A program made the position numbers and the translations under genes. A DNA stretch of 64,000 nucleotides from Halorhabdus amylolytica. Its GTDB lineage: Archaea > Halobacteriota > Halobacteria > Halobacteriales > Haloarculaceae. Numbering within the stretch: the stretch's first letter is position 1; the number at the start of each line of letters is the position of its first letter. Below, piece by piece: positions 33,166-55,802 of the stretch. The stretch lies in contig NZ_SPQG01000004.1 in the NCBI RefSeq assembly GCF_004944975.1, forward strand, positions 162,569 through 226,568. The letters are read 5' to 3'. Under the pieces are notes generated by a model that worked only from the letters and a program-made list of their open reading frames with translations, had not been told where the DNA came from and did not search any database.

Positions 33166-34641
33166 TCAATGTCCCTCGTCGTGAGGATTCAGCGTCGTTC
33201 CGTACTGGTCGACGTGCTCGGTGTACTCGATGAATCGCGGCGCGTCGGGGTCGAAGGGTCGTTCCAGCGCTTCGAAGGCCTTCTTCTTGTCCCAGGACTG
33301 CAGGCCACCGATGGCCGAGCGGTCCTCCAGGTCGTGATAGTCCAGGTCGTCCTTCGTCAGGTTCCAGGCGTCCAGTCCCGCCTCGGTACGGACGATCACG
33401 CTCGAATACTCGTCGCTCGATCCGACGGAGCCAACCGTCAGATCAGCACAGTAGCCGGTGAAGTCCGCGCACTCGTCACAGCCCTTCAGGGCGGCGTCAT
33501 GGAAGTTCTCGACGTCCTCGTCGACGATCAACTCGCCGTCGTGATCGTAGACCATCAGCTTCCCGTCGAGGACGTCCATCTTGCCGACCTCCGCAAGCTC
33601 GATGTCCCGCTGCTCGACGAGTTGCTCGCCCATCAGGCGCTCGTAGTTGAAGTTCTTCGTACACATCAAGGCGATGGCGTAGTCGATCGCCCGGACGCCC
33701 TCCTCGTGGCTGCCGTACTCCCACTGGAAGTCCTGCAGCGCACGGATCCCCTCGATCTCGCAGGGCGTGCCCACGAGGGCAAGTGAGGCGTCCTCGATCG
33801 GCCCGTCGATCTTGTAATCCCACTGCTGCAGGTCGAGGTTGCCCAGCGCCATCGTCTGGGTGTAGATCGAGCCCGCGTTTGCGATACACTCCTCGGGGGT
33901 GGTGGCGAGAAAGGCCTCGGCCTTCCAGGGATCGTCCTCGCTCTCGGTAGCGATGAGCGCGCCGTCGATCTCGCCCGCTTCTAACAGATGGACCAGGACA
34001 CTCGTGACGAGGCCGCCGTCCTGAGCGTTCTCCTGCCAGTCGTCCTCGACCTTGGCGCTGAACTCGGTGATCGGATCACCGGCCCCCGAGACGTTGTCGT
34101 CGCCGCCAGTAACCACCCACTGCCGTTCGTATCGCAGGCCGCCGCGGGGACAGAAGTCCCAGCACAGCGAGCAGCCGGTACACATCTTGACGAGTTCCGG
34201 CAGGCCATTTTCGTCGACGCCGATGGAGTCGCTGGGACACGAGGCGACGCAGGTCCCACACTGGATGCACCGGCCGTCATCGATGACGGCGTCGTCCAGT
34301 TCCATGAACCACGTCTTCTCCGCTGGCGTCTCGATGTCACTCATCCGCGAGCGGATCTCGTAGGACGGCGTGTCGAGTTCGAGGTGCTCCTCGCCCGGTC
34401 GCTGGACGCGCTGATCGGGTGGCGTCTCGTAGACATCCTGGCTCTCCTCGCGGGCGGGTTCGGTGAACTCCATGTCCCGGAGTTGTCCGTTCTCGTCGAC
34501 GTTCGCGGGGCGCGATCCGCCATCCGGTGCGACCTCGGACTGGCAGCCACAGGACGACCCACAGCCACAGGCGTCGCCCTGGTCATTTTCGGACTCGTCC
34601 CGGTTTTCCCCGGGCACGCCCGGGAGAGGATCGTCAGTCAT
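33166..34641 (-). CDS. FrhB/FpoF-family F420 oxidoreductase subunit with two [4Fe-4S] clusters
   Basis: A 491-residue member of the coenzyme F420 hydrogenase/dehydrogenase beta-subunit family. Relatives bind FAD and F420H2 and pass electrons to iron-sulfur clusters. It has two ferredoxin-type clusters: Cys125, 128, 131, 135 (CIQCGTCVASCP) and Cys154, 157, 160, 164 (CTGCSLCWDFCP). The FrhB N- and C-terminal domains follow (GTPCEIEGIRALQ, FNYERLMGEQL, CADFTGYCADLTVG). An unusual N-terminal cysteine knot CGCGSSCGC (residues 25-33) precedes them. The start overlaps the upstream sulfite/nitrite reductase stop by 8 nt, so it likely supplies F420H2-derived electrons to that enzyme. Confidence 0.85.
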   Translation of the reverse strand: MTDDPLPGVPGENRDESENDQGDACGCGSSCGCQSEVAPDGGSRPANVDENGQLRDMEFTEPAREESQDVYETPPDQRVQRPGEEHLELDTPSYEIRSRMSDIETPAEKTWFMELDDAVIDDGRCIQCGTCVASCPSDSIGVDENGLPELVKMCTGCSLCWDFCPRGGLRYERQWVVTGGDDNVSGAGDPITEFSAKVEDDWQENAQDGGLVTSVLVHLLEAGEIDGALIATESEDDPWKAEAFLATTPEECIANAGSIYTQTMALGNLDLQQWDYKIDGPIEDASLALVGTPCEIEGIRALQDFQWEYGSHEEGVRAIDYAIALMCTKNFNYERLMGEQLVEQRDIELAEVGKMDVLDGKLMVYDHDGELIVDEDVENFHDAALKGCDECADFTGYCADLTVGSVGSSDEYSSVIVRTEAGLDAWNLTKDDLDYHDLEDRSAIGGLQSWDKKKAFEALERPFDPDAPRFIEYTEHVDQYGTTLNPHDEGH

Positions 34642-36406
34642 CACTCGACCCCCGTCCGCCCGTCTCCTGGGTGACTCCGGCCGCGACCGGGGCGTCGGCC
34701 CGCTGCATGATCGATCGCAGGCGGTCGTTCTCGACGCGGCGACACCACGCATAGAAGCGTTCGCCCTCCTCGCGCTCCTCGGCGTAGGCCGCGAACAGCT
34801 CCTCCAGGGCGGGAATCACGGCCCGCGCCGGCACCGCCGTTTCGACCCAGTCGAGGAACTCGTTGTCGGTCCCGAGCGCGCCGCCCAGGCCGAAGTCCAT
34901 CCCCTCGACGATCGCGTCACCCTCGACGTTCGTCGAGTCTTCGGGTTCATCTAGCTTCACCGTCTCGCCACGGAACCCGATGTCTGCGATCTGGGGCTGG
35001 GCACAGGAGGCCGAACAGCCAGACATGTGCATCCGCACCACGTCTAAATCGTCAGGCGTGTCGATCCGCCGGTCGAGTGCCTTCGCCCACCGATAGACCC
35101 GATTTTTGGTCTCGATGATCCCGTAGTTGCAGAACTCCGAGCCCGTACAGCCGACCGCACCCCGCGAGAACGGGCCGGGATCGGGGCTGTACTTCCGCGC
35201 GAACGGCTCGGCCATGAGGTCGCCGACGTTCTCGGCCGGGATGTGGGTGATGAGAAAGTTCTGGTCGGTCGCCAGCCGGATCGAGGCCTCGTCAGTGCCG
35301 TACTTCCTGGCGGCGCGGGCGGCTTCGACGAACTCCTCGCCGCTCATCCGGCCGGCGATGACGTTGAAGCCGACGTACTTCAGCCCCTCTGTCTTCTGAT
35401 CGTGGACGCCGACGTGATCGCCGGTGTAGCCCTCGGTGAGGTCGAGGCCGCTCTCGGGCAGGTCGACCGAACAGCGCCGCCGGACCGCGGCCTCGAACTC
35501 CTCAGTGCCGAGCTGTTCGACCAGGTACCGCATCCGGCAGACACCCCGATTCGACCGGTCGCCCAGTTCCTTGAACGTCTGGGCGATGGCGAGACAGAAC
35601 TCCACAGCGTCCTCCGGCGGGATGAAGACGTCCATCTGAGTGGCCATTCGGGGTCCGTCCGAGAGGCCGCCCCCGACCTTGCAGTGAAAGCCGTAGATGT
35701 CCTCGCCACCGTCGGACGAGTCCGACGAGTCCCCAGCCTCGTCAGAGACGTCAACGGTCTTCCGCGCCGGCGTCAGTCCGACGTCGTTGATCTGGGACTG
35801 CCCACAATCGTGGGCACAGCCCGTGATGGTCATCTTGAACTTCCGGGGCAGGTTGGCGTACTCCCGGTTCTCGGTGAAAAACTCGTTGACGGCATCGATC
35901 ACCGGTTGGGCGTCGAAACACTCGTGGTCGTCCAGTCCGGCGGCGGGACACCCCAAGACGTTTCGGGCGGAGTCGCCACATCCCTGGATCGTCGTCAGGC
36001 CGACCTCGTCGTAGGTCTCCCAGATGCCGGGGACGTCCTCGACCTCGATCCAGTGCATCTGGATGTCCTGGCGCGTCGTGATATCGAGATACGCATCGCC
36101 CCAGATTTCGTTCTGTGCTTCGCCCCCGTGTTCGTCGGGTGCGGTGGCGTACGCCGTCGCCACCTCGCCGATCACCTCGGCCTGCTCGGGCGTGAGGTAC
36201 CCGCCGGGCACCTTCGTGCGCTTCATGAAGAAGTCGTCGTGCTCGCCGTGGGCGTACAGGCCGGCCCACTTCAGGCGCTCCCACTCGCCGTCGCCCGCCC
36301 GGTCCTCTATCTCGTCGAAGGAGAGTTCGCTCTCGGCGTACTCGCGGACGTCTTCGATCACGTCGAGGGGGTGTTTCTCCTGTTTCCAGTGCTCTACTGT
36401 ATTCAT
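34634..36406 (-). CDS. Siroheme-[4Fe-4S] sulfite/nitrite reductase
   Basis: A 590-residue assimilatory-type reductase catalysing the six-electron reduction of sulfite to sulfide or nitrite to ammonia. The siroheme/[4Fe-4S] ligands are Cys420, Cys426 (GCTGSEFCNYG) and Cys464, Cys468 (CSASCAQPQ). The pseudo-symmetric first half has GCGDSARNVLGCP (142-154) and GCAHDCGQSQ (196-205). A Ser/Asp-rich insert (DEAGDSSDSSDGGED, about 222-236) looks like expansion of a triplet tract. The ATG at 36406 is chosen over an in-frame start 21 codons earlier. The FrhB-family gene overlaps its 3' end. Sulfite versus nitrite cannot be decided by eye. Confidence 0.88.
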   Translation of the reverse strand: MNTVEHWKQEKHPLDVIEDVREYAESELSFDEIEDRAGDGEWERLKWAGLYAHGEHDDFFMKRTKVPGGYLTPEQAEVIGEVATAYATAPDEHGGEAQNEIWGDAYLDITTRQDIQMHWIEVEDVPGIWETYDEVGLTTIQGCGDSARNVLGCPAAGLDDHECFDAQPVIDAVNEFFTENREYANLPRKFKMTITGCAHDCGQSQINDVGLTPARKTVDVSDEAGDSSDSSDGGEDIYGFHCKVGGGLSDGPRMATQMDVFIPPEDAVEFCLAIAQTFKELGDRSNRGVCRMRYLVEQLGTEEFEAAVRRRCSVDLPESGLDLTEGYTGDHVGVHDQKTEGLKYVGFNVIAGRMSGEEFVEAARAARKYGTDEASIRLATDQNFLITHIPAENVGDLMAEPFARKYSPDPGPFSRGAVGCTGSEFCNYGIIETKNRVYRWAKALDRRIDTPDDLDVVRMHMSGCSASCAQPQIADIGFRGETVKLDEPEDSTNVEGDAIVEGMDFGLGGALGTDNEFLDWVETAVPARAVIPALEELFAAYAEEREEGERFYAWCRRVENDRLRSIMQRADAPVAAGVTQETGGRGSSDD

Positions 36407-36536
36407 ATGAATGACACGCGCTTCCAGTCCCGGACGGATAATCGTGATTGACACGGCAGTACGTGACAATGCTCGTGGGTAGGGGCGAGGCGTGCCGACA
36501 GCTACGACGTGGGCACGAAACTATCCGAGTGGGGAC

Positions 36537-38451: not shown

Positions 38452-38560
38452 ACAGTCTGATCGCAGAAGTGGCTCTAAAGGAGAACTCGAATCGAACTCA
38501 CCGACGTCAAAGATTCGTCACGTGTCTTTTTGATAGTCGGCCAAGAACTGTCAGACGTTG

Positions 38561-39640
38561 ATGCGAACGAAACAGGTTGCGGCCCTCCTCGCGGTTGCCG
38601 GTGCGGGCATGGTCAGTTTCGCCGTGGTCCACTTTCTCATTCACGAGATCAGTAGCGTCCCCACGGTCCACATTGTGAGCAACCTCGTCGTCGCCGGTGG
38701 CGCCGGCATCGGGTTGCTGTACGTCGGGTACTGGCTGTCCGGCTACTCGTTCCGATCGTCTCGCAACGTGCGGATCCTCGCGTGGACTGCTGTCGGTGCG
38801 GTGACGCTGCTGGCCGTCTTCGTCCTCATCCAGCCCCTCGCCCAGGAGACAGTCACGGCGGAAGAACTGCTACACATCGTCCAGGTTTCGGTCAGCGTCG
38901 GGACGCTACTGGGGGCAGCGATCGGATCCTTCGAGGTGCGTTCGCTCGCCCGGGCCGAGGAGGTGACCCGCGTCGAATCCCGCCTGGCAGCACTGGAGGA
39001 CGAACGCGAGCGCTGGGGAGAACTCAACACCGTGCTCAGACACTACGTCAACAACTCCGTAACGGTGATCAACTTCTGTCTCGATGATCTGCGGGCGAGC
39101 GTGCGCGACGGGGAGGAACGCGAACACGTCGAGACGATCGAAACTGTCGCCGAACACGTCGAGACGATCGAAACTGTCGCCGAACACGTCGATCGACTCG
39201 GTCCCACGGCCGGCTTCGAGAACGTTGCCCCGATCGCCGACCTGGATCGCGTGATCCAGAGGGGGTGTCAGCTGTTCGAGGGAGATGCCGACGTCACGAT
39301 CTCGATACCCGACGAGAGCGTAGAAGTGGAGGTGGGTGAGTCCGTCGAGCAGGACATCACCCTCCTCCTCGAGGCGCTCTCTAGTCTGATCGATGGGGCC
39401 GGGGAGATAGACTGCACGTACGAGACGGTCGAGGACGTCATCGTCGTCCGGTTCGCGGCCACGCCGGCCACCCTCCCGTCGGCGGTCGAGGCGGCGTTGT
39501 TCGAGCCGGTCACGCGACAGAGCGGGCTGAAGCTCTATCTCGCGGAGCGATCGATCGCCGCCTACGCCGATGTTCGACTGGCGACCAACGAGGAAGAGAC
39601 AGTCGCGTTCGAAGTCCGCTTCGAGCCGTCGTCACACTGA
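38561..39640 (+). CDS. Membrane histidine kinase-like protein with degenerate ATPase domain
   Basis: A 359-residue protein with four N-terminal membrane helices (about residues 5-125), a dimerisation/phosphoacceptor-like helix with LRHYVNNSV (His161), and a C-terminal region where an ATPase domain is expected. That region lacks a clear N-box Asn (LLLEALSSLIDGAGE) and the DxGxG box, so ATP binding is doubtful. A perfect 30-bp tandem duplication gives EHVETIETVA twice (residues 188-207) directly after the His helix. It may be a pseudokinase or membrane sensor. TTG at 38558 is an alternative start one codon earlier. Confidence 0.7.
   Translation: MRTKQVAALLAVAGAGMVSFAVVHFLIHEISSVPTVHIVSNLVVAGGAGIGLLYVGYWLSGYSFRSSRNVRILAWTAVGAVTLLAVFVLIQPLAQETVTAEELLHIVQVSVSVGTLLGAAIGSFEVRSLARAEEVTRVESRLAALEDERERWGELNTVLRHYVNNSVTVINFCLDDLRASVRDGEEREHVETIETVAEHVETIETVAEHVDRLGPTAGFENVAPIADLDRVIQRGCQLFEGDADVTISIPDESVEVEVGESVEQDITLLLEALSSLIDGAGEIDCTYETVEDVIVVRFAATPATLPSAVEAALFEPVTRQSGLKLYLAERSIAAYADVRLATNEEETVAFEVRFEPSSH
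39121..39180 (+). repeat. Perfect 30-bp tandem duplication inside the kinase-like gene
   Basis: Two identical 30-bp units (39121-39150 and 39151-39180), with the first 12 bases repeated once more, encode a duplicated 10-residue helical segment. Thirty bases equal ten codons, so frame is kept. Confidence 0.97.
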
Positions 39641-39999: not shown

Positions 40000-40284
40000 A
40001 TGTGTCTAGGCATACCGGGAGAGATCGTCGAGATCGACGGCAACGAAGCGCGCGCCGAGTTCTGGGACGTCGAGAAGACCGTCCGGATCGACGTGGTCGA
40101 CGAGGATGTCGAAGTGGGTGATCACATCCTCAACCACGCAGGCTTCGCCATTCGGAAGATCCCCGAAGAGGAGGTCGAGGAGACGATGGAGATCTACGAA
40201 TCGTTCCTCGAAGGCGACGAGGACGAGGCCTTAGAGGAGATCGGGGCCAGCGAGGGCCAGCAACTCGGCATCGAGGGCCGATAG
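40000..40284 (+). CDS. hypC: HypC, hydrogenase maturation chaperone
   Basis: A 94-residue chaperone that, with HypD, carries the Fe(CN)2CO unit to the [NiFe]-hydrogenase large subunit. The essential Cys2 is present in MCLGIPGEIVEIDG, followed by the beta-barrel pattern VRIDVVDEDVEVGDHILNHAGFAI. The C-terminus is a longer acidic helix than in bacteria. It opens hypC-D-E-A-B; hypD begins at the next base after its stop. An upstream promoter at the standard distance is not obvious. Confidence 0.95.
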   Translation: MCLGIPGEIVEIDGNEARAEFWDVEKTVRIDVVDEDVEVGDHILNHAGFAIRKIPEEEVEETMEIYESFLEGDEDEALEEIGASEGQQLGIEGR

Positions 40285-41406
40285 ATGGCGACGAACGCAG
40301 ACGCCGGCGAGGGGGAACTGAAGTTCCGCGACCCCGAGAAGGCCGAACGGCTGACCGACGAACTCGACGCCCTGATGGACGAGATCGGCGAACCGGTCAA
40401 CGTGATGCACGTCTGTGGTTCTCACGAGCAGGCCATCGCGAAGTTCGGCCTGCGTTCGATCCTCCCCGACGACCTGACGGTCCGGATGGGGCCCGGCTGT
40501 CCGGTTTGCGTGACCAACATGCCCGAGGTCGACGAGGCAGTCGCGCTGGCAGAGGACGGGCACGTCGTCGCCACGTACGGTGACATGTTCCGCGTGCCGG
40601 GGACGAAAAAGAGTCTCGCAGACGCCAAAGACGAGGGTGCCGACGTCCGGGTCGTCTACAGCGCCAGTGAGGCCGCCGAGATCGCCGAGGACGAACCCGA
40701 CCGCGAGGTGATCTTCTTCGCGACGGGCTTCGAGACGACCGCCGCGCCGACCGCCGCGGTCCTCACGTCCGATCCGCCCGAGAACTTCTCGGTGCTTTCG
40801 GCCCACAAGTACGTCCCGCCCGCCATGGAAGTCGTCGCGGAGATGCCCGACACCGACGTCGACGGCTTCCTCGCGGCGGGCCACGCCGCGACGATCACTG
40901 GATACGGTCTCTTCGAGGACTTCGTTTCCGAATACGATACCCCGGCCGTCGTCGGCGGGTTCGAGCCGATCGACATCCTCTACGGGCTCGCACGCCTGCT
41001 GGAGTTCATCCGCGACGGCGAGGCGGGCTTAGAGAACGCCTATCCGCGCTGCGTCAGCGAAGAAGGCAACGTTCCCGCCAAAGAGACGATGTGGGAGGTC
41101 TTCGAGACCACCAGCGGCGAGTGGCGTGGGATCGCCGAGATACCGCAGGCGAACCTCGTCCTCTCGACGGAGTACGCCGAGTACGACGCCCGCGAACGCT
41201 TCGATATCGAACCGGAGGAGGGGGCGATCGACCCGCTGACCGAGCAGTGCATCACCGGGGACATCATGGCCGGGAAGGCCGATCCCACCGAGTGCGAACT
41301 GTTCGGCGAGGAGTGTACCCCCCAGGACCCCGTCGGGGCGAGCATGGTATCCAGCGAGGGGACCTGCAAGATCTGGCTCGAATACGGCGGCCAGCCGGAT
41401 CTGTGA
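40285..41406 (+). CDS. hypD: HypD, hydrogenase Fe(CN)2CO assembly scaffold
   Basis: The scaffold on which the iron with its cyanide and CO ligands is assembled. Signature motifs are complete: HVCGSHEQ (about residues 42-49), GPGCPVCV (about 69-76), NAYPRCV (about 251-257) and the C-terminal cluster region CITGDIMAGKADPTEC...CTPQDPVGASMVSSEGTC, which holds the [4Fe-4S] ligands. Length (373) is normal. It directly follows hypC with no gap. Confidence 0.97.
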   Translation: MATNADAGEGELKFRDPEKAERLTDELDALMDEIGEPVNVMHVCGSHEQAIAKFGLRSILPDDLTVRMGPGCPVCVTNMPEVDEAVALAEDGHVVATYGDMFRVPGTKKSLADAKDEGADVRVVYSASEAAEIAEDEPDREVIFFATGFETTAAPTAAVLTSDPPENFSVLSAHKYVPPAMEVVAEMPDTDVDGFLAAGHAATITGYGLFEDFVSEYDTPAVVGGFEPIDILYGLARLLEFIRDGEAGLENAYPRCVSEEGNVPAKETMWEVFETTSGEWRGIAEIPQANLVLSTEYAEYDARERFDIEPEEGAIDPLTEQCITGDIMAGKADPTECELFGEECTPQDPVGASMVSSEGTCKIWLEYGGQPDL

Positions 41407-41415
41407 GGTGATCGA

Positions 41416-42489
41416 ATGAGCGACACAGACGAAGTCGGCGAGGAGGTCACGGCCGAGGACGGTTATACCGACGACGCGGTCATCACCCACGCCCACGGTG
41501 CGGGTGGCGGGCAGATGACCGAACTGATCGAGAGCCTGGCGGTCTCCCGTTTCGCCGAGAGCGAGGCGGACGTCGGGTTGGCAGCCTTAGACGACGGGAG
41601 CGTCCAGCCCATCGACGACGACCACTCGGTAGTCGTCACGACCGACAGCCACGTCGTCACGCCGCTTTTCTTCCGCGGGGGTGACATCGGCCGGCTCGCA
41701 GTCTCGGGGACAGTCAACGATCTGGCGATGATGGGTGCGACTGAACCGCTGGCGCTGACGAGTTCGCTGATCATCGAGGCCGGAACCCCACAGTCGACCG
41801 TCGAACGCGTTACCGAGTCGATGCGGGAGGCATGTGAGGAGGCCGGAACGACGGTCACGACCGGCGATACGAAGGTCATGGGAAGCGACGAGATCGACAC
41901 GCTGGCAATCAACACGACCGGCGTCGGGATCGTCCCGAGAGGCGAGCACGTCCCCGACGCGGGCCTCTCTGTCGGCGACAAACTCATCGTCTCGGGGACG
42001 ATCGGCGACCACGGCATCTCGCTACTCTCCGAGCGCGAAGGCTTCGACTTCGGGGGTGACCTCGAGAGCGACGTCCAGCCGGTCAACGATCTCGTTCGTG
42101 CGGCGATGGACGCAGGTGAGGTGACGGCGATGAAGGACCCGACCCGGGGCGGACTCGCCACCGTCCTCAACGAGATGGCGAGCAAAGCCGACGTGGGGAT
42201 CGATGTCGAAGATGCATCCGTCCCGGTCTCCGGGGCCGTCTCTTCCGCCGGCGAGGTACTCGGCATCGAACCGTTCGACGTTGCCTGTGAGGGCGTCGTC
42301 GTAATGGGCGTCACGGGCGAGGACGCCGAGGATGTCCTCGACGCGCTCCGGGACAATTCCAAAGGAGAGGACGCGGCCATTGTCGGCGAGGTCGTCGAGG
42401 ACCATACCGGCCAGGTCGTCCTCGATACCGGCTTCGGCCGGCGCTACCTCAGTCCACCCGAGGGCGAACAGCTGCCACGGATCTGTTGA
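41416..42489 (+). CDS. hypE: HypE, carbamoyl dehydratase in hydrogenase maturation
   Basis: An ATP-dependent dehydratase that converts a carbamoylated C-terminal Cys to thiocyanate, the source of the cyanide ligands; HypF supplies the carbamoyl group. The 357-residue protein has the AIR-synthase-like fold with HAHGAGGGQM (about 26-35), TTDSHVVTPLFFRGGDIG (about 75-92), KDPTRGGLATVLNEMA (about 232-247) and the essential C-terminal PRIC ending in Cys357. The presence of that Cys argues for function. Confidence 0.97.
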   Translation: MSDTDEVGEEVTAEDGYTDDAVITHAHGAGGGQMTELIESLAVSRFAESEADVGLAALDDGSVQPIDDDHSVVVTTDSHVVTPLFFRGGDIGRLAVSGTVNDLAMMGATEPLALTSSLIIEAGTPQSTVERVTESMREACEEAGTTVTTGDTKVMGSDEIDTLAINTTGVGIVPRGEHVPDAGLSVGDKLIVSGTIGDHGISLLSEREGFDFGGDLESDVQPVNDLVRAAMDAGEVTAMKDPTRGGLATVLNEMASKADVGIDVEDASVPVSGAVSSAGEVLGIEPFDVACEGVVVMGVTGEDAEDVLDALRDNSKGEDAAIVGEVVEDHTGQVVLDTGFGRRYLSPPEGEQLPRIC

Positions 42490-42490
42490 C

Positions 42491-42913
42491 ATGCACGAGT
42501 TCTCCATCGCTACGCAGGTACTCGAAGCCGCCCGGGAGGCCGCGGCCGATCACGGGAAAGATACCTTCGAAGGAATTAGCGTCTCGGTCGGCGAGGCGAG
42601 CCACGTCAATCCCGACCAACTGGAGACGTGCCTCGACGCGGCGGCCGATTCGACGGTCGGCAAGGACGAACTCGACATCGAGATCGAGACCGAGCCCGCC
42701 TACGCCGAGTGTGACTGTGGCTGGAGCGGGGAACCCGAGACGATCGACCGGGCGTTGGCGTACGCGCCGAACCTGACCTGTCCCGAGTGTGACGAACGGC
42801 TGGAACTCCAGGCCGGCAACGAGTGTCGGCTGATGAGTGTCACTATCCCGGAGGCGGACGACGGGGACGATGGGAACGCCGCCGACTCGCCCGATGCCAA
42901 CGCGATCGACTGA
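42491..42913 (+). CDS. hypA: HypA, hydrogenase nickel-insertion protein
   Basis: A nickel metallochaperone that works with HypB. The N-terminal MHEFSI includes the Ni-binding His2. The zinc region is CDCGWSG...CPECD: the second half is a normal CxxC but the first is CxC rather than CxxC, which is unusual. The 140-residue protein ends in an acidic Asp/Ala tail. It starts 1 nt after hypE. Ni binding is expected to be intact; zinc geometry deserves a check. Confidence 0.92.
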   Translation: MHEFSIATQVLEAAREAAADHGKDTFEGISVSVGEASHVNPDQLETCLDAAADSTVGKDELDIEIETEPAYAECDCGWSGEPETIDRALAYAPNLTCPECDERLELQAGNECRLMSVTIPEADDGDDGNAADSPDANAID

Positions 42914-43042
42914 CCCCGTATGCAAGTGAATACAATGTATCACATCCGACGACACCCACGCACGGACGTGACGCCGATCGACCGCCTGCTGGACCGCTTG
43001 CTGTCAAATTCCGACGTACCCGGACCGCTACAGACCCATCGG

Positions 43043-43852
43043 ATGGGTCACGGCGACGGCGACCACGAGCACAGTGACGCGGAGGCGGACATCCTCGCAC
43101 AGTTCGAAGAGCAGGCCGACGAGTTGCACGAGCGGGTCGTCCACGACCACGGCGTCTTCGTCGCCGAGTTCCTCGGGGCGACCGGCAGTGGCAAGACCCG
43201 ACTGATCGAGCGTCTGATCGAGCGGGCGTCCGACGACGAGGAGATCGGCGTGATCGTCGGCGACGTGGCCGGCGAGGACGACGCCACCCGATTCCGAGAA
43301 CTCGGGGTCTCCGTCGCCAACGTGAACACGGGCAAGGAGTGTCATCTCGATCCCTCGCTGGTCGAGGGCGCGCTGGAGGACCTCGATCTCGACGCGCTGG
43401 ACACGCTGTACATCGAGAACGTCGGCAACATGGTCTGTCCGGCGGACTTCCCGCTCGGCGCGCAGGCCCGGGTGCTGGTCGTCTCCGCCACGGAGGGCGA
43501 CGACGTGGTGCGCAAGCATCCGCTGCTCTTCCAGGCCTGCGATGGGGCGGTAATCAACAAGGTCGACATCGCCGAAGCGGTGAATGCTGATCTTGACCTG
43601 ATGGAATCGGACGTGAGTGAGATAGCTCCCGAGATGCCGACCTTCCGGACCAGCGCCGAACACGGGGACGGCCTAGACGAGCTCGCTGCGTATCTCGACG
43701 AGCGTGGGCACGTCCATGCCAGCGATCACGAGGCCTACGTGTCCGAGACGGGCCACAGCCACACGCACGAGCATACCCACACCGACGGCCGGACGCACGA
43801 GCACGATCACGCACACGAAGACAGACGCGACCACGCTCACACGCACGACTGA
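43043..43852 (+). CDS. hypB: HypB, GTPase for hydrogenase nickel insertion
   Basis: A SIMIBI GTPase that drives nickel delivery with HypA. It shows the P-loop GATGSGKT (about 44-51), the metal-site CH in NTGKECHLD (about 93-101), VGNMVCPADF and the specificity motif NKVD. The C-terminus is a striking His-rich tail with 12 His in the last 33 residues (GHSHTHEHTHT and THEHDHAHE), whereas nickel-storage tracts usually sit at the N-terminus. The ATG at 43043 (MGHGDGDHEHSD) is preferred; an ATG at 42920 would add 41 basic, non-acidic residues unlike the family. Confidence 0.93.
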   Translation: MGHGDGDHEHSDAEADILAQFEEQADELHERVVHDHGVFVAEFLGATGSGKTRLIERLIERASDDEEIGVIVGDVAGEDDATRFRELGVSVANVNTGKECHLDPSLVEGALEDLDLDALDTLYIENVGNMVCPADFPLGAQARVLVVSATEGDDVVRKHPLLFQACDGAVINKVDIAEAVNADLDLMESDVSEIAPEMPTFRTSAEHGDGLDELAAYLDERGHVHASDHEAYVSETGHSHTHEHTHTDGRTHEHDHAHEDRRDHAHTHD

Positions 43853-43978: not shown

Positions 43979-44689
43979 ATGATTGATCTCCCTGATAGTG
44001 AGTACGAAGAACGCGTCGCGAGGGCGCGTCTGGCGCGAGAAGAGGCCCGGAAAACCGTCACGGAGCAGACCTCGACGCTCTCAGATATCGACGAGAAGGC
44101 GATTCAGATATTCCGGATCAATACAGTTATCGCCAGTATTCTCGTGACTGGTGTTTCGATAGCCGTCAGTAGCGATTCAGCGACGTACACCGATCTCATT
44201 ACCGGGTATACGACCACTGGCGCGCTATTCTTGCTCACGTCTATCCTTCTCGCCGCGATAACGTATACAGCCACTGCCGAGCGGATCGGGATCAACGCCG
44301 AAACGATCGGGGAAAGCATTCTGAACCAGCAGTATGACTATGATTTAGTTGAGGAAGAAATCGCCCTGGAATACGGCAAGATGATCCAGAAGAACTACGA
44401 GAAGAACGCTTCGAACGTACTTCTTTTCACACTGACGCTGATTACAACCGTTGTGGCAGTGTGTTATCTTGCCATCGGCCTAGTTGACATCTATAGCGCT
44501 TCAGGGGTTTCACCGACAATCAATCTCGGGATCATCCTCTTTTTCGCCGTGTTCGGGAAACTCAGTGGACTGTACGGGACGACAGTCCGATGGTGGAAAC
44601 TGACCGATCCCGACGAACGTCTCCAAGGGTGGATAGTCGACTGGATAGAGAAACTATCGATCGGAAGTGTGCCAAAGGTTCTTGAGTGA
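43979..44689 (+). CDS. Four-helix membrane protein, unknown (possibly SLATT-like)
   Basis: A 236-residue protein with a charged helical N-terminus (YEERVARARLAREEARKTV), two pairs of hydrophobic helices (about 47-65, 76-98, 146-170 and 178-198) and an amphipathic linker (EEEIALEYGKMIQKNYEKN) between the pairs. The layout recalls SLATT-type membrane proteins linked to conflict systems, but this is only a shape comparison. Codon use is clearly more AT-rich than in hypB or nrdB, suggesting transfer. Two acidic microgenes follow within 20 nt, so a three-gene unit is likely. Confidence 0.65.
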   Translation: MIDLPDSEYEERVARARLAREEARKTVTEQTSTLSDIDEKAIQIFRINTVIASILVTGVSIAVSSDSATYTDLITGYTTTGALFLLTSILLAAITYTATAERIGINAETIGESILNQQYDYDLVEEEIALEYGKMIQKNYEKNASNVLLFTLTLITTVVAVCYLAIGLVDIYSASGVSPTINLGIILFFAVFGKLSGLYGTTVRWWKLTDPDERLQGWIVDWIEKLSIGSVPKVLE

Positions 44690-44708
44690 TTCTCCCCAAT
44701 GTATTCGT

Positions 44709-44813
44709 ATGAGTGCCGCTGAGAACGAAGACGAAGACGAGCGCGAACGCCCCACCATCGAGTCACAGGTGGCCTTCAAGGGCGACTTCGACGAAGACGA
44801 CGATGACGAATAA
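44709..44813 (+). CDS. Acidic microprotein A (34 residues)
   Basis: A short, very acidic frame starting MSAAENEDEDERERPTIESQ and ending in an Asp/Glu run. It follows the membrane protein gene by 19 nt and overlaps the next microgene by 11 nt. The core RERPTIESQ recurs as RERPDIETQ in the following protein, so the two are paralogues. Function unknown. Confidence 0.55.
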   Translation: MSAAENEDEDERERPTIESQVAFKGDFDEDDDDE

Positions 44814-44928
44814 CGAAACTGACGACGAATCCACCGAAGATGAGGGACGTGAGCGTCCCGATATCGAGACACAAGAAGCACTTGGAGCGGATGCTTCGAC
44901 GGGAGAAGCCGATACCGAGTCGGGATAG
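44803..44928 (+). CDS. Acidic microprotein B (41 residues), paralogue of A
   Basis: Starts MTNNETDDESTEDEGRERPD and shares the RERPxIE(S/T)Q core with the preceding microprotein. Both are acidic, lack Cys and lack hydrophobic helices. Coupled translation through the 11-nt overlap supports expression. A CCGAGTC/GACTCGG inverted repeat (44915-44948) spans its end and could be a terminator. Confidence 0.55.
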   Translation: MTNNETDDESTEDEGRERPDIETQEALGADASTGEADTESG

Positions 44929-44999
44929 TCAGAGTGGTCTTGACTCGGTTCGAGCGTGGGGGCGGAAATTAAGCTTACCGCAAGATAGCGTTCACGCCG

Positions 45000-45992
45000 T
45001 CACCACTCCAGCGACCCACCGCTCTGGTACTCGGTGACCTGTGTTTCGAAGAAGTTCTTCTCCTTGTTGAGGTCGACCTGCTCGGACATCCACGGGAACG
45101 GATTCTCGGTCCCGTACTGCTCGGGGAGGTCGAGTTGATCGAGGCGGCGGTCGGCGATGTATTCGACGTACTCGGCGAACTGCTCGGGACCCATGCCCAG
45201 GATCTCCTCGGGGCAGGCCTCGCGGGCGTAGATCTGCTCCAGTTCGACGGCCTCTTCGATCAGATCGATCACCTCGCTATCGAAGTCGTCGGTCCAGACG
45301 CCCGGGTGCTCGGTCCGGATCTGGTTGATCAGATCGACGCCGAAACCCACGTGCAAGGACTCGTCGCGCATGATGTACTCGAACTGCTGACCGATCCCGA
45401 CCAACTTCGACTGGCGTTTCAGCCCGAGCATCATCGCGAAACCCGCATAGAAGAAGATTCCCTCCATGATGACATAGAAGCCCACAAGGTCACGCAGGAG
45501 GTCGCGCACGTCGTCGTCGCCGTCGATCGTGAAGTCGGGGTCGTCGATCGACCGCGTCAGGTCGACGACGAACTGATCTTTCTCCTCGATGGAGGGGACG
45601 CGATCGTACATCCCGTAGAGATACTCGGGCTCGAACCCGAGGGTGTCACAGCAGTAGATGAACGTGTCCGTGTGGATAGCCTCCTCGTAGGCCTGTCGCA
45701 GGAGGTACTGGCGACACTCCGGGGCAGTGACGTACTCGTAGAGGGCCAACACGAGGTTGTTGGCGGTGAGGGACTCCGCGGTCGAGAAGAAACCGAGGTT
45801 CCACTCGACGAGCTGGCGCTCGGCGTCGCTGAGTTCCTCGCCGTTCCACTGGGCGACGTCGTCCTGCATGGGAATCTCCTCGGGGACCCAGTTGTTGTTG
45901 ACGCCCGCCTCGTAGTATTCACGGGCCCAGTCGTAGTCGATCGGCAAGATTTTGTTCGGGTCGTGCTCGGCGTCGGTGTCGATGAGTGGCAT
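45000..45992 (-). CDS. nrdB: NrdB, class I ribonucleotide reductase small subunit (class Ic-like)
   Basis: The radical-generating R2 subunit that makes deoxyribonucleotides with NrdA. The 330-residue protein has metal ligands Glu73, Glu104, His107, Glu177, Glu211 and His214 (EEAIH, IMEGIFF and RDESLH). The position of the radical Tyr is Phe111 (IHTDTF). This ligand set and its spacing (31, 3, 4, 73, 34, 3) match the Chlamydia class Ic R2, which uses a Mn/Fe cofactor instead of a tyrosyl radical. The ATG at 45992 is the family start. It lies 38 nt after nrdA in nrdR-nrdA-nrdB. Confidence 0.94.
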   Translation of the reverse strand: MPLIDTDAEHDPNKILPIDYDWAREYYEAGVNNNWVPEEIPMQDDVAQWNGEELSDAERQLVEWNLGFFSTAESLTANNLVLALYEYVTAPECRQYLLRQAYEEAIHTDTFIYCCDTLGFEPEYLYGMYDRVPSIEEKDQFVVDLTRSIDDPDFTIDGDDDVRDLLRDLVGFYVIMEGIFFYAGFAMMLGLKRQSKLVGIGQQFEYIMRDESLHVGFGVDLINQIRTEHPGVWTDDFDSEVIDLIEEAVELEQIYAREACPEEILGMGPEQFAEYVEYIADRRLDQLDLPEQYGTENPFPWMSEQVDLNKEKNFFETQVTEYQSGGSLEW

Positions 45993-46030
45993 GGCTGTGG
46001 TTGTGGTTGAGAGGAATGGTTCGCTGGCGA

Positions 46031-48520
46031 TCACTGACAGGCGTCACAGGTCGGGTCCTCAACGCTGGCGAGTTCCGAACTGCCGTTGCTGTCGGCGGCG
46101 TGGTCGTCGGCGCCACCGTCAGCAGGGTCGCCGTTCTCCCGGTGTTGTGTCTTGCCGTATTCGGAGAGATCGAGCGTGGACTTCTCGATCTGGGAGGCCC
46201 CCAGCGTTCGGAGGTAATAGGTCGTCTTCAGGCCGAGTTCCCAGGCTGTGGTGTAGATATCGTCCAGCAGCGTCCCGTCCGTCGAGGGGAAAAAGACGTT
46301 GTGCGAGACCGACTGGTCGATCCACGTCTGGCGGTGGGCCGTCAACCGCAGTTGATGCCGGGGGTCGATCTCGAAGGCACTGCGGTACAGTTCCCGCAGG
46401 TTCGCGGGAATCGTCTCGATGTCCTGGATCGAGCCGTCGTGGTACTTGATTCGGTCTAAGAGTTCGTCGTCCCAGAGATCACGCTCCCGGAGATCGGCGA
46501 CCAGGTGGTCGTTGACGATCGTGAAGTCCCCGGACATGTTCGATTTGACGTAGAGGTTCGAGTACATCGGCTCGATGGAGGCCGTCGTTCCGTTGATCGT
46601 CGAGACCGTCGCGGTGGGCGCGATCGCCATCGTGTTGGAGTTGCGCATCCCGTGCTCGGCGATAGACTCACGGACGGCATCCCAATCGAGAGTCTCGGTC
46701 CGCTCGGTCGGAATCTCGCGGCCGCGTTCGTCCTCTAAGAGGTCGACGGTGTCCTGTGGCAGAATACCACGGTCCCACTTCGAACCCTCGAAGGAGGGAT
46801 AGGCACCACGCTTGCCAGCCAGTTTCGAGGAGGTCCGGATCGCGTGATAAGCGACGAACTCCTGCCAGCGGTTGGCTTTCTCGACAGCCTCCTCGGAAGC
46901 CATCGGGACGCCGATCTCCATCAACGCCTCGTGAAAGCCCATCGTCCCGAGGCCAACGGGGCGATGGCGCATATTGGAGTCCTCGGCTTCCTCGGTCGGA
47001 TAGAAACACAGATCGACGACGTTGTCGAGCATCCGCATCGCCGTCTCGACAGTTTCTTCGAGGTAGTCACGATCGAGCTTCGCGGGCGCAGACGCCCGCT
47101 CGGTCTCCGCGGAACTGCGTTCCGCGCTGTCGCTGTCCCGTACGTGTGTCGCGAAGTTGACGCTCCCCAGATTACAGACCGCATGTTCGTCCTGGCTGGT
47201 GTTGAGCGTGATCTCCGTACAGAGGTTCGACGAGCGGACCGTCCCCTCGTGATCCTGTGGGGAGCCGATGTTGCAGGGGTCCTTGAAAGTCACCCAGGGG
47301 TGGCCGGTCTCGAACAGCCGCGTCAGGAGCTGTCGCCACAGTTCCTCGGCCTCGACGGTCTCGAAGTTCTCGATCTCACCGTTCTCGGCGGCCCGTTCGT
47401 ACTCGCGATACGTCTCGGCGAACTCCTCGCCGGTCGACTCGTGGAGGTCCCCCACCTCGTCAGGGCTGAACAGCGTCCAATCGCCACTGGACTGGACACG
47501 TTCCATGAACAGGTCGGGGATCCAGGCGGCGGTATTCATGTCCGGAGTGCGCCGACGTTCGTCGCCAGTGTTGCGTTTCAGGTCCAGAAAGGCCGGGAAG
47601 TCCAGGTGCCAGATGGCCAAGTAGGCACAGGCGGCTCCGCGACGCTTGCCCGAGCGGTTGATCGCCGCCGTCACGTCGTTCGAGATGCGCAGGAACGGCA
47701 CTACCCCGGTCGACTCGACGCCCGTGGACTCGATCAGCGCGCCCTCCGCGCGTAGCGGTGTCCAATCGTTGCCGAGACCACCGGACCACTTCGAGAGTTG
47801 CGCGTGGTGCTTGTAGGCCTCGAAAATCCCCTCCAGGTCGTCAGGAACCGTCGTGAGGTAACACGAGGACAGTTGCGGGTGGGCCGTCCCGCTGTGGAAC
47901 AGGGTGGGTGTCGAGGGGGTGAATTCGAGCTTCGAGAGGACGTCGTAGAACTCTTTGGCGCGGGCGTCGGGATCGTCCTCCTCGACGGCCAGGCCCATCG
48001 CGACGCGCATCCAGAACGCCTGGGGAAGTTCCAGATGCTCGCCGTCGTTCGTTCGAAGGAAATACCGCTGATACAGTGTCTCCATCGCCAGGTACTCGAA
48101 GTGATCGTCGCGTTCGGGCACGAGGTAGTCAGCGAGGGCGTCCAGATCGAAGTGATCGAGAAGTCTGTCATCCAGCAGGTCGGCCGCGACGCCACGTTCG
48201 ATGTTTGCGACGAACGTCTCGCGGTAGGCGCGATCCAGATCGTCGCCGGTCAGGTCCTTGCCGATCACTTCGTGATAGTACCGCTGTCGAAAGACTCGGG
48301 CGGCGACGCGTTTGTACTCCGGTTTGCGTTCGATGCGGGCGGTCAGCGCTTGAAGAATCCCCTCGTACACTTCGGCCCGGTCGGCACCGGCGTAGAGATT
48401 CTCGTCGATCGCTCGCCGGAGGTCCCTCCGTTCGGCCTCGGTGACGGCCGGTTCGTCTTCGAGGGCGCGATCGAGTATCGATGCGATTCGGTCCGTGGAA
48501 CTTGCTGTCTGATGGCTCAT
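46031..48520 (-). CDS. nrdA: NrdA, class I ribonucleotide reductase large subunit
   Basis: The catalytic R1 subunit. The 829-residue protein has an N-terminal ATP-cone region (about 10-95), barrel motifs TPSTPTLFHSGT and SSCYL, the active-site segment SSNLCTEI, AVCNLGSVN, and MRNSNTMAIAPTATVS. The C-terminus ends in CDAC, the mobile redox pair. A 20-residue Ser/Glu/Ala-rich insertion (SDSAERSSAETERASAPAKL) encoded by two adjacent perfect hairpins (47082-47126) interrupts the domain after the NLGSVN strand and looks acquired. It overlaps nrdR by 4 nt. Confidence 0.96.
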   Translation of the reverse strand: MSHQTASSTDRIASILDRALEDEPAVTEAERRDLRRAIDENLYAGADRAEVYEGILQALTARIERKPEYKRVAARVFRQRYYHEVIGKDLTGDDLDRAYRETFVANIERGVAADLLDDRLLDHFDLDALADYLVPERDDHFEYLAMETLYQRYFLRTNDGEHLELPQAFWMRVAMGLAVEEDDPDARAKEFYDVLSKLEFTPSTPTLFHSGTAHPQLSSCYLTTVPDDLEGIFEAYKHHAQLSKWSGGLGNDWTPLRAEGALIESTGVESTGVVPFLRISNDVTAAINRSGKRRGAACAYLAIWHLDFPAFLDLKRNTGDERRRTPDMNTAAWIPDLFMERVQSSGDWTLFSPDEVGDLHESTGEEFAETYREYERAAENGEIENFETVEAEELWRQLLTRLFETGHPWVTFKDPCNIGSPQDHEGTVRSSNLCTEITLNTSQDEHAVCNLGSVNFATHVRDSDSAERSSAETERASAPAKLDRDYLEETVETAMRMLDNVVDLCFYPTEEAEDSNMRHRPVGLGTMGFHEALMEIGVPMASEEAVEKANRWQEFVAYHAIRTSSKLAGKRGAYPSFEGSKWDRGILPQDTVDLLEDERGREIPTERTETLDWDAVRESIAEHGMRNSNTMAIAPTATVSTINGTTASIEPMYSNLYVKSNMSGDFTIVNDHLVADLRERDLWDDELLDRIKYHDGSIQDIETIPANLRELYRSAFEIDPRHQLRLTAHRQTWIDQSVSHNVFFPSTDGTLLDDIYTTAWELGLKTTYYLRTLGASQIEKSTLDLSEYGKTQHRENGDPADGGADDHAADSNGSSELASVEDPTCDACQ
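47082..47126 (-). repeat. Two adjacent perfect stem-loops within nrdA
   Basis: GCGGGCG-CAGA-CGCCCGC (47082-47099) and CGCGGAAC-TGC-GTTCCGCG (47108-47126). They encode the low-complexity Ser/Glu/Ala insertion in NrdA, suggesting a small palindromic element inserted in frame. Confidence 0.75.
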
Positions 48521-49008
48521 GTGTCTGATTCGTCGGGGGGGTCAGCCTCCGCGTCGAGGACGGCATCGAGTTCCCGGCGGAACTCCGCCGGGTCGGAGAA
48601 GGCCTCGTACACGGAGACGAACCGGAGATACGCGACTTTGTCGCGATCGCGCAGGTGCTCGGAGACGAGGTCGCCGATCTGTGTCGAGGCGACGATCCGT
48701 CCCTCGCGGTCGGCGAGGTCGTCGTGGATGGCCTCGACTATCGCAGTCACCGCTTCCCCGTCGACCGGTCGCTTCTCGACGGCCCGTTCGATGCCCGCCC
48801 TGAGTTTCTCGCGGTCGAACGGTTCGATGGCTCCGTCGCGTTTCCTCACCTGCAGGGACTCCCACTCGGGGCGTTCGTACGTGGTGAATCGGAACCCACA
48901 CTCCCGACACTCTCGACGTCGACGGATCGAGGCTCCGTCGGCACTGGGCTCGGTGTCGAGGACGTGCGTGCGATCGTTCCCGCAGTCGGGACAGTCCATA
49001 GTTGTCAC
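48517..49008 (-). CDS. nrdR: NrdR, transcriptional repressor of ribonucleotide reductase
   Basis: A zinc-ribbon/ATP-cone repressor that binds NrdR boxes when loaded with (d)ATP. The 163-residue protein has CPDCG...CRECGFRFTT at the N-terminus and an ATP-cone (KRDGAIEPFDREKLRAGIERA and on). It is cotranscribed ahead of nrdA with a 4-nt overlap, an arrangement that implies it controls its own operon. A palindrome overlapping its TATA box (49027-49042) is a candidate operator. An alternative start lies three codons later. Confidence 0.95.
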   Translation of the reverse strand: MTTMDCPDCGNDRTHVLDTEPSADGASIRRRRECRECGFRFTTYERPEWESLQVRKRDGAIEPFDREKLRAGIERAVEKRPVDGEAVTAIVEAIHDDLADREGRIVASTQIGDLVSEHLRDRDKVAYLRFVSVYEAFSDPAEFRRELDAVLDAEADPPDESDT

Positions 49009-49026
49009 TGTCGAATCCCCGTTGAG

Positions 49027-50382: not shown

Positions 50383-50383
50383 T

Positions 50384-51845: not shown

Positions 51846-54143
51846 ATGAGCGAACGGAATCGTGCGATCGTCTCGGTAACGGGCGTCGTCCAGGGGGTGG
51901 GATTTCGACCGTTCGTCTATCGGACGGCGACCGAGGAGGAGCTCGCCGGGCGAGTGAACAACACCGGCGACGGTCGGGTCGAGATCGTCCTGGAGGGCTC
52001 GGAGGCAGGGATCGAGTCGTTCCTCTCGACACTCCGGACGGACCCGCCACCGCTCGCTCGCGTCGAGAACGTAACGGTCACGGACAGTGACCCCGAGGGA
52101 CTCTCGACTTTCGATATCGTCGCTTCGACCGATTCGACGGGCGGTTCGGGGACGATCCCGCCCGACACGGCAATGTGTGACGCCTGTCTCGAAGACTTGC
52201 GGGACCCCGACTCCCGGTTCTACGAGTACTGGGCGAGCGCCTGCGTCGACTGTGGCCCACGGTACACGGTCATTCGGGAGTTGCCCTACGATCGCCCCAC
52301 CACGTCGATGGACGCCTTTCCGATGTGCGACGACTGCCTGGAGGACTACGAAAATCCAACCGATCGCCGGTATCACGCCCAGACGATCGCCTGTCCGGCG
52401 TGTGGCCCGACGCTCTCGCTGCTCGATGGCGACGGGAACGAACTCGCCGGTGGTGACGACGCGATCCGACGGGCGGGCGAACGACTCGCCGGTGGCGATC
52501 TCGTGGCGATCAAAGGGATCGGCGGGACACACCTCGCTTGCGACGCGACTGATCCGGAAGTTGTCGAGAGGCTCCGCGAGCGGACGGGTCGCCCGGAGAA
52601 ACCGTTCGCGGTGATGGCCCCCGACCTGGAGACGGTCGAGTCGTTCGCCCAGGTTTCGGCCGACGAACGCGACGCACTCGAAGACACCCGTCGGCCGATC
52701 CTCTTGCTCGACGGCCGGAGCGACGACCGGCCGGAATGGCTCGCCGCCGTCTCACCGGGGTTGCATACCGTCGGTGTCATGCTACCGTACTCCGGATTGC
52801 ATCACCTCTTCTTCGATCACGTCGACGGGCCACTGGTGATGACCAGCGCCAACATGCCCGGCGTGCCGATGGCGACCGACCGCGAGTCGATCCTCGTCGA
52901 CCTCGACGGGGTGATCGACGCCACCCTCGTCCACGACCGGGAGATCGTGATGCGGTGTGACGACAGCGTCGCCCGCTTCTCCGGGGGACAGCGACGCTTC
53001 GTCCGTCGATCGCGGGGATGGGTGCCCGAGTCGCTGCCACTGCCCGTGGATACCGACCTCGACGTGCTTGCCCTCGGAGCTGAGTTCGATGCGACTGTGG
53101 CGCTTACACAAGCTGGCGAGATCGTTCCCTCCCAGTATATCGGCGACGTTGACGATCCCGAGACGATCGGGTATCTTCGGGAGACCGTTTCCCATCTCCG
53201 GGATCTGCTCGGCACCGATCCCGACGTGGTGGCCTGTGACGCCCACCCCGACTTCCTGACGACCAGTGAAGCCCGGAAGTACGCCAGCGAGGAAGGTATG
53301 GCAGGACCCATGCAGGTACAGCACCACCACGCCCACGCAGCCAGCTTGCTGGCCGAACACGGGCGCAAGCGAGCGATCGTGATCGCTGCCGACGGGACAG
53401 GGTACGGACCGGATGGGTCGATCTGGGGCGGAGAAGTGCTGGACACGACGCTCGCCGACTTCGAGCGCGTCGGCGGGCTCTCGACGTTTGCACTGCCAGG
53501 TGGGACAGCCGCGATCGAAACGCCCGCCCGAATCCTCGCGAGTCTGCTCGACGACACTGAGCGGATCGACGAGTTGCTGGTCGAAGGCGGTGCGGTCGAG
53601 ACTGCGGACGAAGCAGCGACTGTCCGCCGACAGGTCAAGCAGAGCGTCAACACCCCCGTGACGACCAGCAGCGGTCGGTTGCTCGACGCTGTGAGTGCCC
53701 TGCTGGACGTATGCACCGAGCGCTCCTACGAGGGCGAACCGGCGATGAAACTCGAAAGTGTGGCGGTCGGTGGCGACGTTCTCGACTACGAGATCCCGTA
53801 CGACAGCCGGAACGGGACGCGTGTGCTCGACTCCCGACAACTCGTCCGAGACCTCGATTCGCTTTCCGACGAACACTCGACCGCAGACGTGGCCGCGACC
53901 GCCCAGTGGACGCTGGCGCACGGACTGGCCGACGTGGCCGTCGAAGTCGCCGAGGACCGGGGGGTCGACACCGTGGGGTTCACTGGCGGCGTGGCGTACA
54001 ACGACGCGATCATCCGGACGATCAGCGAACGGGTCGAGGTGGTGGGGCTGGATTTCCTGAGTCACGATCAGGTTCCACCGGGCGACGGTGGGATCGCCTA
54101 TGGACAGGTCGCGGTGGCCACTGCCCGGGACAGTACCGATTGA
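51846..54143 (+). CDS. hypF: HypF, carbamoyltransferase for hydrogenase maturation
   Basis: Makes thiocarbamoyl-HypE from carbamoyl phosphate and ATP, the origin of the cyanide ligands. The 765-residue protein has all domains: acylphosphatase (GVVQGVGFRPFVY, 13-25), zinc-finger pairs (CDAC...CVDCGPRYT and CDDC...CPACGP, about 110-190), the YrdC/Sua5 domain (about 200-380) and a Kae1-like domain with HHHAHAA, ADGTGYGPDGSIWGGE and FTGGVAYND. It is 8 kb from hypCDEAB. Convergent with the lone nuoCD gene, with 9 nt between their stop codons. Confidence 0.96.
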   Translation: MSERNRAIVSVTGVVQGVGFRPFVYRTATEEELAGRVNNTGDGRVEIVLEGSEAGIESFLSTLRTDPPPLARVENVTVTDSDPEGLSTFDIVASTDSTGGSGTIPPDTAMCDACLEDLRDPDSRFYEYWASACVDCGPRYTVIRELPYDRPTTSMDAFPMCDDCLEDYENPTDRRYHAQTIACPACGPTLSLLDGDGNELAGGDDAIRRAGERLAGGDLVAIKGIGGTHLACDATDPEVVERLRERTGRPEKPFAVMAPDLETVESFAQVSADERDALEDTRRPILLLDGRSDDRPEWLAAVSPGLHTVGVMLPYSGLHHLFFDHVDGPLVMTSANMPGVPMATDRESILVDLDGVIDATLVHDREIVMRCDDSVARFSGGQRRFVRRSRGWVPESLPLPVDTDLDVLALGAEFDATVALTQAGEIVPSQYIGDVDDPETIGYLRETVSHLRDLLGTDPDVVACDAHPDFLTTSEARKYASEEGMAGPMQVQHHHAHAASLLAEHGRKRAIVIAADGTGYGPDGSIWGGEVLDTTLADFERVGGLSTFALPGGTAAIETPARILASLLDDTERIDELLVEGGAVETADEAATVRRQVKQSVNTPVTTSSGRLLDAVSALLDVCTERSYEGEPAMKLESVAVGGDVLDYEIPYDSRNGTRVLDSRQLVRDLDSLSDEHSTADVAATAQWTLAHGLADVAVEVAEDRGVDTVGFTGGVAYNDAIIRTISERVEVVGLDFLSHDQVPPGDGGIAYGQVAVATARDSTD

Positions 54144-54152
54144 GGCCGCAAC

Positions 54153-55802
54153 TCACCGATCGACTTCACCCATGATCGTATCGAGACTGCCGAGCGTGGC
54201 GATGAAATCGGCGACGTACTCGCCGTTGGCCATCTCGGGAAGGGCCTGGAGGTTCGAGAACGATGGGCCGCGGATCTTGAACCGCGCCGGTTTGTCGGTG
54301 CCGTCACTGCGAATATAGATCCCGAGTTCGCCCTTGGCCGCCTCGACGGCCCGATACACCTCGGCGTCGGGTTCGGGCCGGAGGGTGCGCGGGACGTTCG
54401 ACTGGATCTGGCGGTCGTCTTCGGGCCACTCGGCCAGCACATCGACGCACTGCTCGACGATCGCCGCCGACTGCTCGATCTCGCGCATCCGGACGAGTAC
54501 TCGGGCGTAGTTGTCACAGCCGTCCTCGGTGATCACGTCCCAGTCGAGTTCGTCGTAGTAGCCATAGGGGTCGTCCCGCCGGAGGTCGTAGTCGATCCCG
54601 GATCCGCGGGCGACGGGGCCGGTCACGCCGTAGGACTTCGCGACCTCGGGGTCGAGGTGGCCAGTGTCGAGCGTCCGCAACTGGATGATCTCGTTGGCAC
54701 TGAGCAGATCGTGGTACTCGGCCAGTCGATCGGGCAGGAAATCCAGAAACGCGCGGATCTCGTCGAGGAACTCCGCGCGGGGTTCGGGCAGGTCCCAGGC
54801 GACACCGCCGAGCCGGAAGTAGTTGAACATGAGCCGCTGGCCGGTCAGGTCTTCGAGCAGGCTCTGGACGCGTTCGCGATCCTGGATCGCATACATGAAC
54901 GTCGCGGTGAAGTCCCCGACCACGTCCAGGGCATAGGCACCGACGGCGAGAAAGTGACTGAGTATCCGTGAGAGTTCGGCGCTCATCGTCCGGACGACCT
55001 GAGCGTACTCGGGCACGTCGATGTCCGCTAAGTCCTCGGCGGCACGGGCGTAGGCCCACTCGTTGAGCAGTCCGCCACCGCCCCAGTCCCAGCGATCGGG
55101 GTAGGGCATGATCTGGTGGCGGTAGGTGCCTTCCTGGCACAGCTGTTCCTCACACCGGTGGATGTAGCCGATGTCCGGTTCGGCGTCGACGACCTGCTCG
55201 CCGTCCAGGGTCAACTGGACGTGCAGGACGCCGTGGGTGGCGGGGTGGTGGGGTCCGATATTGAGCAGCATCGTGTCATTGGCCCGCTCGTGGTCGTCTT
55301 CGAGCGGATTGACGTTCTCCCGGTAGGTGACGATCTGTGGTTGGGACTGGTCGTACTCCGCCCGGAGCGGATGACCCTGCCAGGTTTCGGGAAGGAGAAT
55401 CCGCCGCAGATCCGGGTGATCCTCGTACCCGATCCCCAGTAAGTCGTAGGCCTCCCGCTCGTGCCAGTCGGCCGTGTCGTACACCGACGCCGCGGACTGG
55501 CTGACCGGTTCGTCTCTGCTCGTCGGAACGACGACGCTCAGCTCCAGGGTCGGATCGTCGTAACTCCGGAGGTGGTAGATCGTCTCGAAGCGATCGGCGT
55601 ACTCCTGGGCCGTGACGCAGGCGCAATGATCGAAACCGGCACGATCCCGAAGCGCTTCGAGGACGGCAGCCACGGCGTCGGCCCGGACCACGATCCCGGG
55701 CGCGTTCCCGTGGGTTTCACGATCGATGACCGCGTCCAGATCTTCGACAACTGTCTCCCAGTCACCCGATCGCTCGCGGCCAGTCTGCTGGACGGCGCCC
55801 AT
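54153..55802 (-). CDS. nuoCD: NuoCD, fused complex I-type quinone-module subunit, stand-alone
   Basis: A fusion of NuoC (30 kDa; EREAYDLLGIGYEDHPDLRRILLPE about 115-139) and NuoD (49 kDa; IGPHHPATHGVLHVQLTLDGE about 187-207), 549 residues. Complex I-like enzymes use it to build the quinone pocket. It has the halophile segment IGYIHRCEEQLCQEG but not the N- and C-terminal CxxC ligands of [NiFe] hydrogenases, so it is not itself a hydrogenase subunit. No other nuo gene is nearby, which is unusual. The start at 55802 gives the normal NuoC N-terminus. Confidence 0.88.
   Translation of the reverse strand: MGAVQQTGRERSGDWETVVEDLDAVIDRETHGNAPGIVVRADAVAAVLEALRDRAGFDHCACVTAQEYADRFETIYHLRSYDDPTLELSVVVPTSRDEPVSQSAASVYDTADWHEREAYDLLGIGYEDHPDLRRILLPETWQGHPLRAEYDQSQPQIVTYRENVNPLEDDHERANDTMLLNIGPHHPATHGVLHVQLTLDGEQVVDAEPDIGYIHRCEEQLCQEGTYRHQIMPYPDRWDWGGGGLLNEWAYARAAEDLADIDVPEYAQVVRTMSAELSRILSHFLAVGAYALDVVGDFTATFMYAIQDRERVQSLLEDLTGQRLMFNYFRLGGVAWDLPEPRAEFLDEIRAFLDFLPDRLAEYHDLLSANEIIQLRTLDTGHLDPEVAKSYGVTGPVARGSGIDYDLRRDDPYGYYDELDWDVITEDGCDNYARVLVRMREIEQSAAIVEQCVDVLAEWPEDDRQIQSNVPRTLRPEPDAEVYRAVEAAKGELGIYIRSDGTDKPARFKIRGPSFSNLQALPEMANGEYVADFIATLGSLDTIMGEVDR

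Follow-up and report, generated by a model that had tools for sequence, protein, structure and literature searches.

The canonical hypA-F system is the closest known counterpart of the [NiFe]-hydrogenase maturation genes reported here for Halorhabdus amylolytica. The likeness extends to six proteins with their key residues, the order C-D-E-A-B, and a separate hypF. Unlike the canonical case, the hyp genes of this strain are unlinked to structural genes, code for acidic haloarchaeal proteins, and specify a HypB with a His-rich C-terminus. Haloarchaeal hyp genes together with a [NiFe]-hydrogenase are also known from the group 1 hydABC-hyp modules of Halodesulfurarchaeum and Natronolimnobius (PMC5437934, PMC6176080). 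In those modules hyp adjoins a single group 1 uptake hydrogenase, whereas it is remote in our case and the enzymes belong to groups 3 and 4. For one of these enzymes, the closest described system is the NiFe-Bfu hydrogenase, which has an unusual B2 cluster with a histidine ligand; archaeal enzymes of this kind were stated in 2022 to occur in Halorhabdus (PMC9304861).

Neither an account of the three-hydrogenase set of Halorhabdus nor an H2 measurement for this genus was found in the literature searched (most subscription papers were outside its scope). Hydrogenases are not named as such in publications dealing with H. utahensis and with a set of ten haloarchaeal genomes.

The hyp operon and hypF

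The window, i.e., the whole stretch of 64 kb that was analyzed, corresponds to positions 162569-226568 of contig C21 from a draft genome of 3.46 Mb (26 contigs, 99.4% complete). According to ORF translation, hypC-D-E-A-B are tightly packed on the forward strand (40000-43852). Their adjacency, order, and coordinates had been given correctly in the initial annotation, and the gene assignments agree with the family models (Table 1). The same holds for hypF, which had been placed 8 kb away and is found at that distance downstream of the operon.

Table 1. Coordinates of the maturation genes and of selected neighboring genes in the window.
Feature	Coordinates	Strand	Description
FrhB/FdhB-type and nitrite/sulfite reductase genes	33166..36469	-	overlapping pair; F420 protein with ferredoxin domain
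HisKA_4TM gene	38558..39640	+	archaeal 4TM histidine-kinase region protein
hypC	40000..40284	+	HypC/HupF chaperone; TIGR00074 (2.1e-19), PF01455; Cys2 present (MCLG)
hypD	40285..41406	+	Fe(CN)2CO assembly scaffold, conserved cysteines; TIGR00075 (E 2.9e-128)
hypE	41416..42489	+	thiocarbamate dehydratase; TIGR02124 (1.8e-110); C-terminal PRIC
hypA	42491..42913	+	Ni metallochaperone; PF01155 (4.1e-21); MHE start, Zn-site cysteines
hypB	42920..43852	+	Ni-insertion GTPase; TIGR00073 (4.4e-71); P-loop GATGSGKT, His-rich tail
hypF	51846..54143	+	carbamoyltransferase; TIGR00143 (E 6e-249); five Pfam domains
nuoCD	54153..55800	-	complex I 49/30 kDa fusion

HypC, HypD, HypE, HypB, and HypF all score above the NCBIfam cut-off. 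For HypA, the NCBIfam models remain under the cut-off and the Pfam model (PF01155) is well over it; the ORF listed for this gene (42332-42913) begins too early, and the extent given in Table 1 applies. The five Pfam domains of HypF include the acylphosphatase, zinc finger, YrdC, and Kae1-like domains. All six Hyp proteins (A-F) are present with their catalytic residues. Those residues for which a claim had been made (Cys2 of HypC, the C-terminal Cys of HypE, the cysteines of HypD, and the P-loop of HypB) were all recovered. The HypD cysteines are at positions 44, 72, 75, 256, 322, 337, 344, and 361, and HypA carries the four cysteines of the Zn site in addition to its MHE start. The closest named HypD is that of Halorhabdus salina FL145 (89%), and a family search of the whole genome returned only one HypD.

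Hydrogenase loci on other contigs

A search of the window with PF00374 returned zero matches, in line with the initial annotation, which had seen no [NiFe] large subunit in the 64 kb. It had also proposed that the hyp genes may serve a distant hydrogenase, and that a genome devoid of [NiFe] large subunits, together with a lack of hyp transcription, would speak against this. The search of the genome that it suggested supports the proposal: large subunits, small subunits, and HycI-type proteases were found at three loci. The three large-subunit genes (PF00374) are located on contigs C16, C26, and C20. Matches to the small-subunit family PF01058 occur at these loci and in the nuo operon on C22, and the three proteins of the HycI-type protease family PF01750 are distributed one per hydrogenase locus and occur nowhere else.

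The four Cys ligands, which form both CxxC pairs, are intact in all three large subunits (C16: RICGIC and DPCLSCSTH; C26: RICAIC and DPCISCSTH; C20: RICGIC and DPCISCTSR). Each protein continues into a C-terminal tail past DPCxxCxx[HR] and thus should need proteolytic maturation. A genome search for a nickel importer, which covered the NicO family only, gave one sub-threshold and no confident match.

At the C16 locus, the genes for HydC, HydB, HydA, HydS, and HydL, the latter with the four Cys ligands, are followed by the protease gene. The electron-bifurcating NiFe-Bfu hydrogenase of Acetomicrobium mobile (7t2r) provides the best solved relatives of HydB (its subunit B, 7.9e-207), HydL (subunit L, 1.8e-155), and HydA (subunit A, 1.5e-81). 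Judged by its sequence, the C16 enzyme is of the NiFe-Bfu type (HydABCSL), with the reversible conversion of NADH plus ferredoxin to H2 as predicted activity. It shares with the NiFe-Bfu enzymes of A. mobile and Halorhabdus (PMC9304861) the five subunits and the 2x[4Fe-4S] region at the C-terminus of HydB (Pfam Fer4 domains at 578-632). Four of the five ligands of cluster B2 are conserved (C438, H525, C531, and C536 in A. mobile), including the histidine, which is H556 in C16 HydB. Unlike in A. mobile, the fifth ligand is replaced, as C476 aligns to Thr507; a threonine is also aligned at this position in the solved NfnB 9n5u. A further difference is the length of HydA (612 aa vs. 692 aa in A. 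mobile).

The C26 locus codes for HydB-G-D-A and a protease, with the ligands intact, and its closest solved relative is sulfhydrogenase 1 alpha (9nez). All C26 proteins stay below the NCBIfam equivalog cut-offs, which points to a divergent member of the group 3b sulfhydrogenases. We thus class the enzyme, on the basis of these similarities, as a group 3b-type NAD(P)-linked hydrogenase/sulfhydrogenase. At the C20 locus, a NuoB/C/D/H/I-like core is accompanied by antiporter subunits (complex-I/Mrp-like membrane subunits) and a protease, and the closest solved relative is the MBH 6cfw (E 6.8e-94). The large subunit keeps the four cysteines. This enzyme is assigned to the membrane-bound group 4 MBH type, with a predicted link to ferredoxin and ion-pump-like subunits.

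We consider it very probable that hypCDEAB and hypF represent a single general assembly system for the [NiFe] cofactor, the clients of which are the three distant hydrogenases. Because there is only one HypD in the genome, one Hyp set would mature all three enzymes. With the pathway steps taken from the established roles of the Hyp proteins, HypF and HypE would make the CN ligands, and HypC and HypD would build the Fe(CN)2CO unit before handing it over to the large-subunit precursors. Nickel would then be inserted by HypA and HypB, and the three locus-specific HycI-type proteases would remove the C-terminal tails of the large subunits from the NiFe-Bfu (C16), group 3b (C26), and MBH-like (C20) enzymes.

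Alternatively, the hyp genes might serve one hydrogenase only, the others being immature or matured by another route. The NiFe-Bfu enzyme would be one candidate, as it is found in all congeners and shows the highest conservation among the three hydrogenases within the genus (91-94% identity of the large subunit). However, each of the three enzymes has complete ligand motifs, a tail, and a protease of its own, and the single HypD also argues against such a restriction. Hyp proteins are pleiotropic in other organisms, which further lowers the likelihood of a one-client system, and we regard it as very improbable.

Co-occurrence, selection, and linkage in haloarchaea

Of the 392 genomes in the order sample, 40 encode HypD and the identical 40 have a match to PF00374, while the other 352 have neither. 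Haloferax volcanii, used as a control, gave no match to HypD or PF00374. No genome among the 392 has hyp without a large subunit. Comparisons with six congeners gave dN/dS values of 0.03-0.23 for the hyp genes and revealed no stops. The genes are thus under strong purifying selection and are no vestige. A window without any structural gene might have been taken to indicate that the operon was left over from a lost hydrogenase. This view is refuted by the three intact large subunits in the genome and by the hyp dN/dS values with the lack of stops throughout the genus, and the order sample holds no case of hyp genes persisting alone; we attribute next to no probability to it.

All three hydrogenase types occur in 7/7 genomes of the genus, a few matches for which the locus was not fetched being typed from their match pattern. 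Two congeners have a fourth large subunit, which resembles none of the three types and presumably belongs to group 1.

The distance between hyp and hydrogenase genes differs with the number of hydrogenases. Haloarchaea in which a single hydrogenase was detected have hyp at most 25 kb from it (26/26). Where several are present, 11 of 14 genomes carry hyp on a different contig or at a distance exceeding 64 kb. Members of the same genus do not count as independent events here, and some genomes with several hydrogenases may be undercounted, as the order-wide PF00374 search scored only the first three candidates of each genome outside the genus. For the genome analyzed here, a draft of 26 contigs, linkage is seen within contigs only. 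The surprise that the initial annotation implied at hyp genes without a nearby hydrogenase is thus overstated, since separation is usual in haloarchaea with several such enzymes. That hyp is near a lone client and usually remote from multiple ones agrees with the report that it adjoins solitary group 1 hydrogenases in haloarchaea (PMC6176080). There is no need for a shared maturation set to stay with any one client.

The maturation system is of a known kind, and what is notable is the three-enzyme client set together with the linkage rule. Across the 392 genomes, hyp genes are present if and only if there is a [NiFe]-hydrogenase, being linked to a single client and usually unlinked from several. 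On this basis, hypD can be used to recognize H2 metabolism in genomes of hypersaline origin.

Haloarchaea are usually described as aerobic, and the apparently orphan maturation operon turns into evidence for an H2 metabolism with three hydrogenases in this group. The three enzymes would mainly discharge fermentation electrons as H2 under anoxia, and it is plausible that H2 is evolved by fermentation with one step that pumps ions. The full scenario is that of a mainly sugar-degrading haloarchaeon in which one Hyp set runs a three-enzyme H2 system, conserved in the genus and composed of a bifurcating NiFe-Bfu, an NAD(P)-linked group 3b, and an ion-pumping MBH-type enzyme, for H2-evolving fermentation with chemiosmotic energy gain at salt saturation. 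We put this forward tentatively, with slightly less than even confidence.

Neighboring genes

An orphan nuoCD gene is found directly downstream of hypF in convergent orientation. Its product is, within the window, the nearest member of the superfamily of the [NiFe] large subunits. The genome codes for three NuoCD paralogs, which are about 75% identical, on C21, on C22 (nuo operon), and on C20 (C20:208364). The same pairing of hypF with nuoCD is seen in two congeners (loci L037 and L039). This arrangement might suggest that all or some of the hyp genes act on another product of the window, such as NuoCD. However, the protein lacks the Ni-binding cysteine motif and a tail, and its 75% identity to the NuoCD of the nuo operon likewise argues against this assumption, which we consider extremely unlikely. 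As a hidden [NiFe] target, NuoCD was rejected for having neither a CxxC motif nor a DPCxxC end.

Just upstream of hypC is the gene for the HisKA_4TM protein, possibly a sensor. It is also present upstream of hyp in two congeners (loci L037 and L038), and two further loci show partial matches at their edge. The gene pair at the start of Table 1 resembles a split F420-dependent sulfite/nitrite reductase.

The distance between hypB and hypF varies from about 2.6 to 8 kb within the genus (window 43979-51714; L034-L037, L039), and the intervening block is thus variable. In the window, it holds genes for ribonucleotide reductase and two MFS transporters as well as one that is nrdR-like. In congener locus L038, a partial second copy of hypB (14242-14721) is located near the hyp operon, with 86% identity over residues 118-277.
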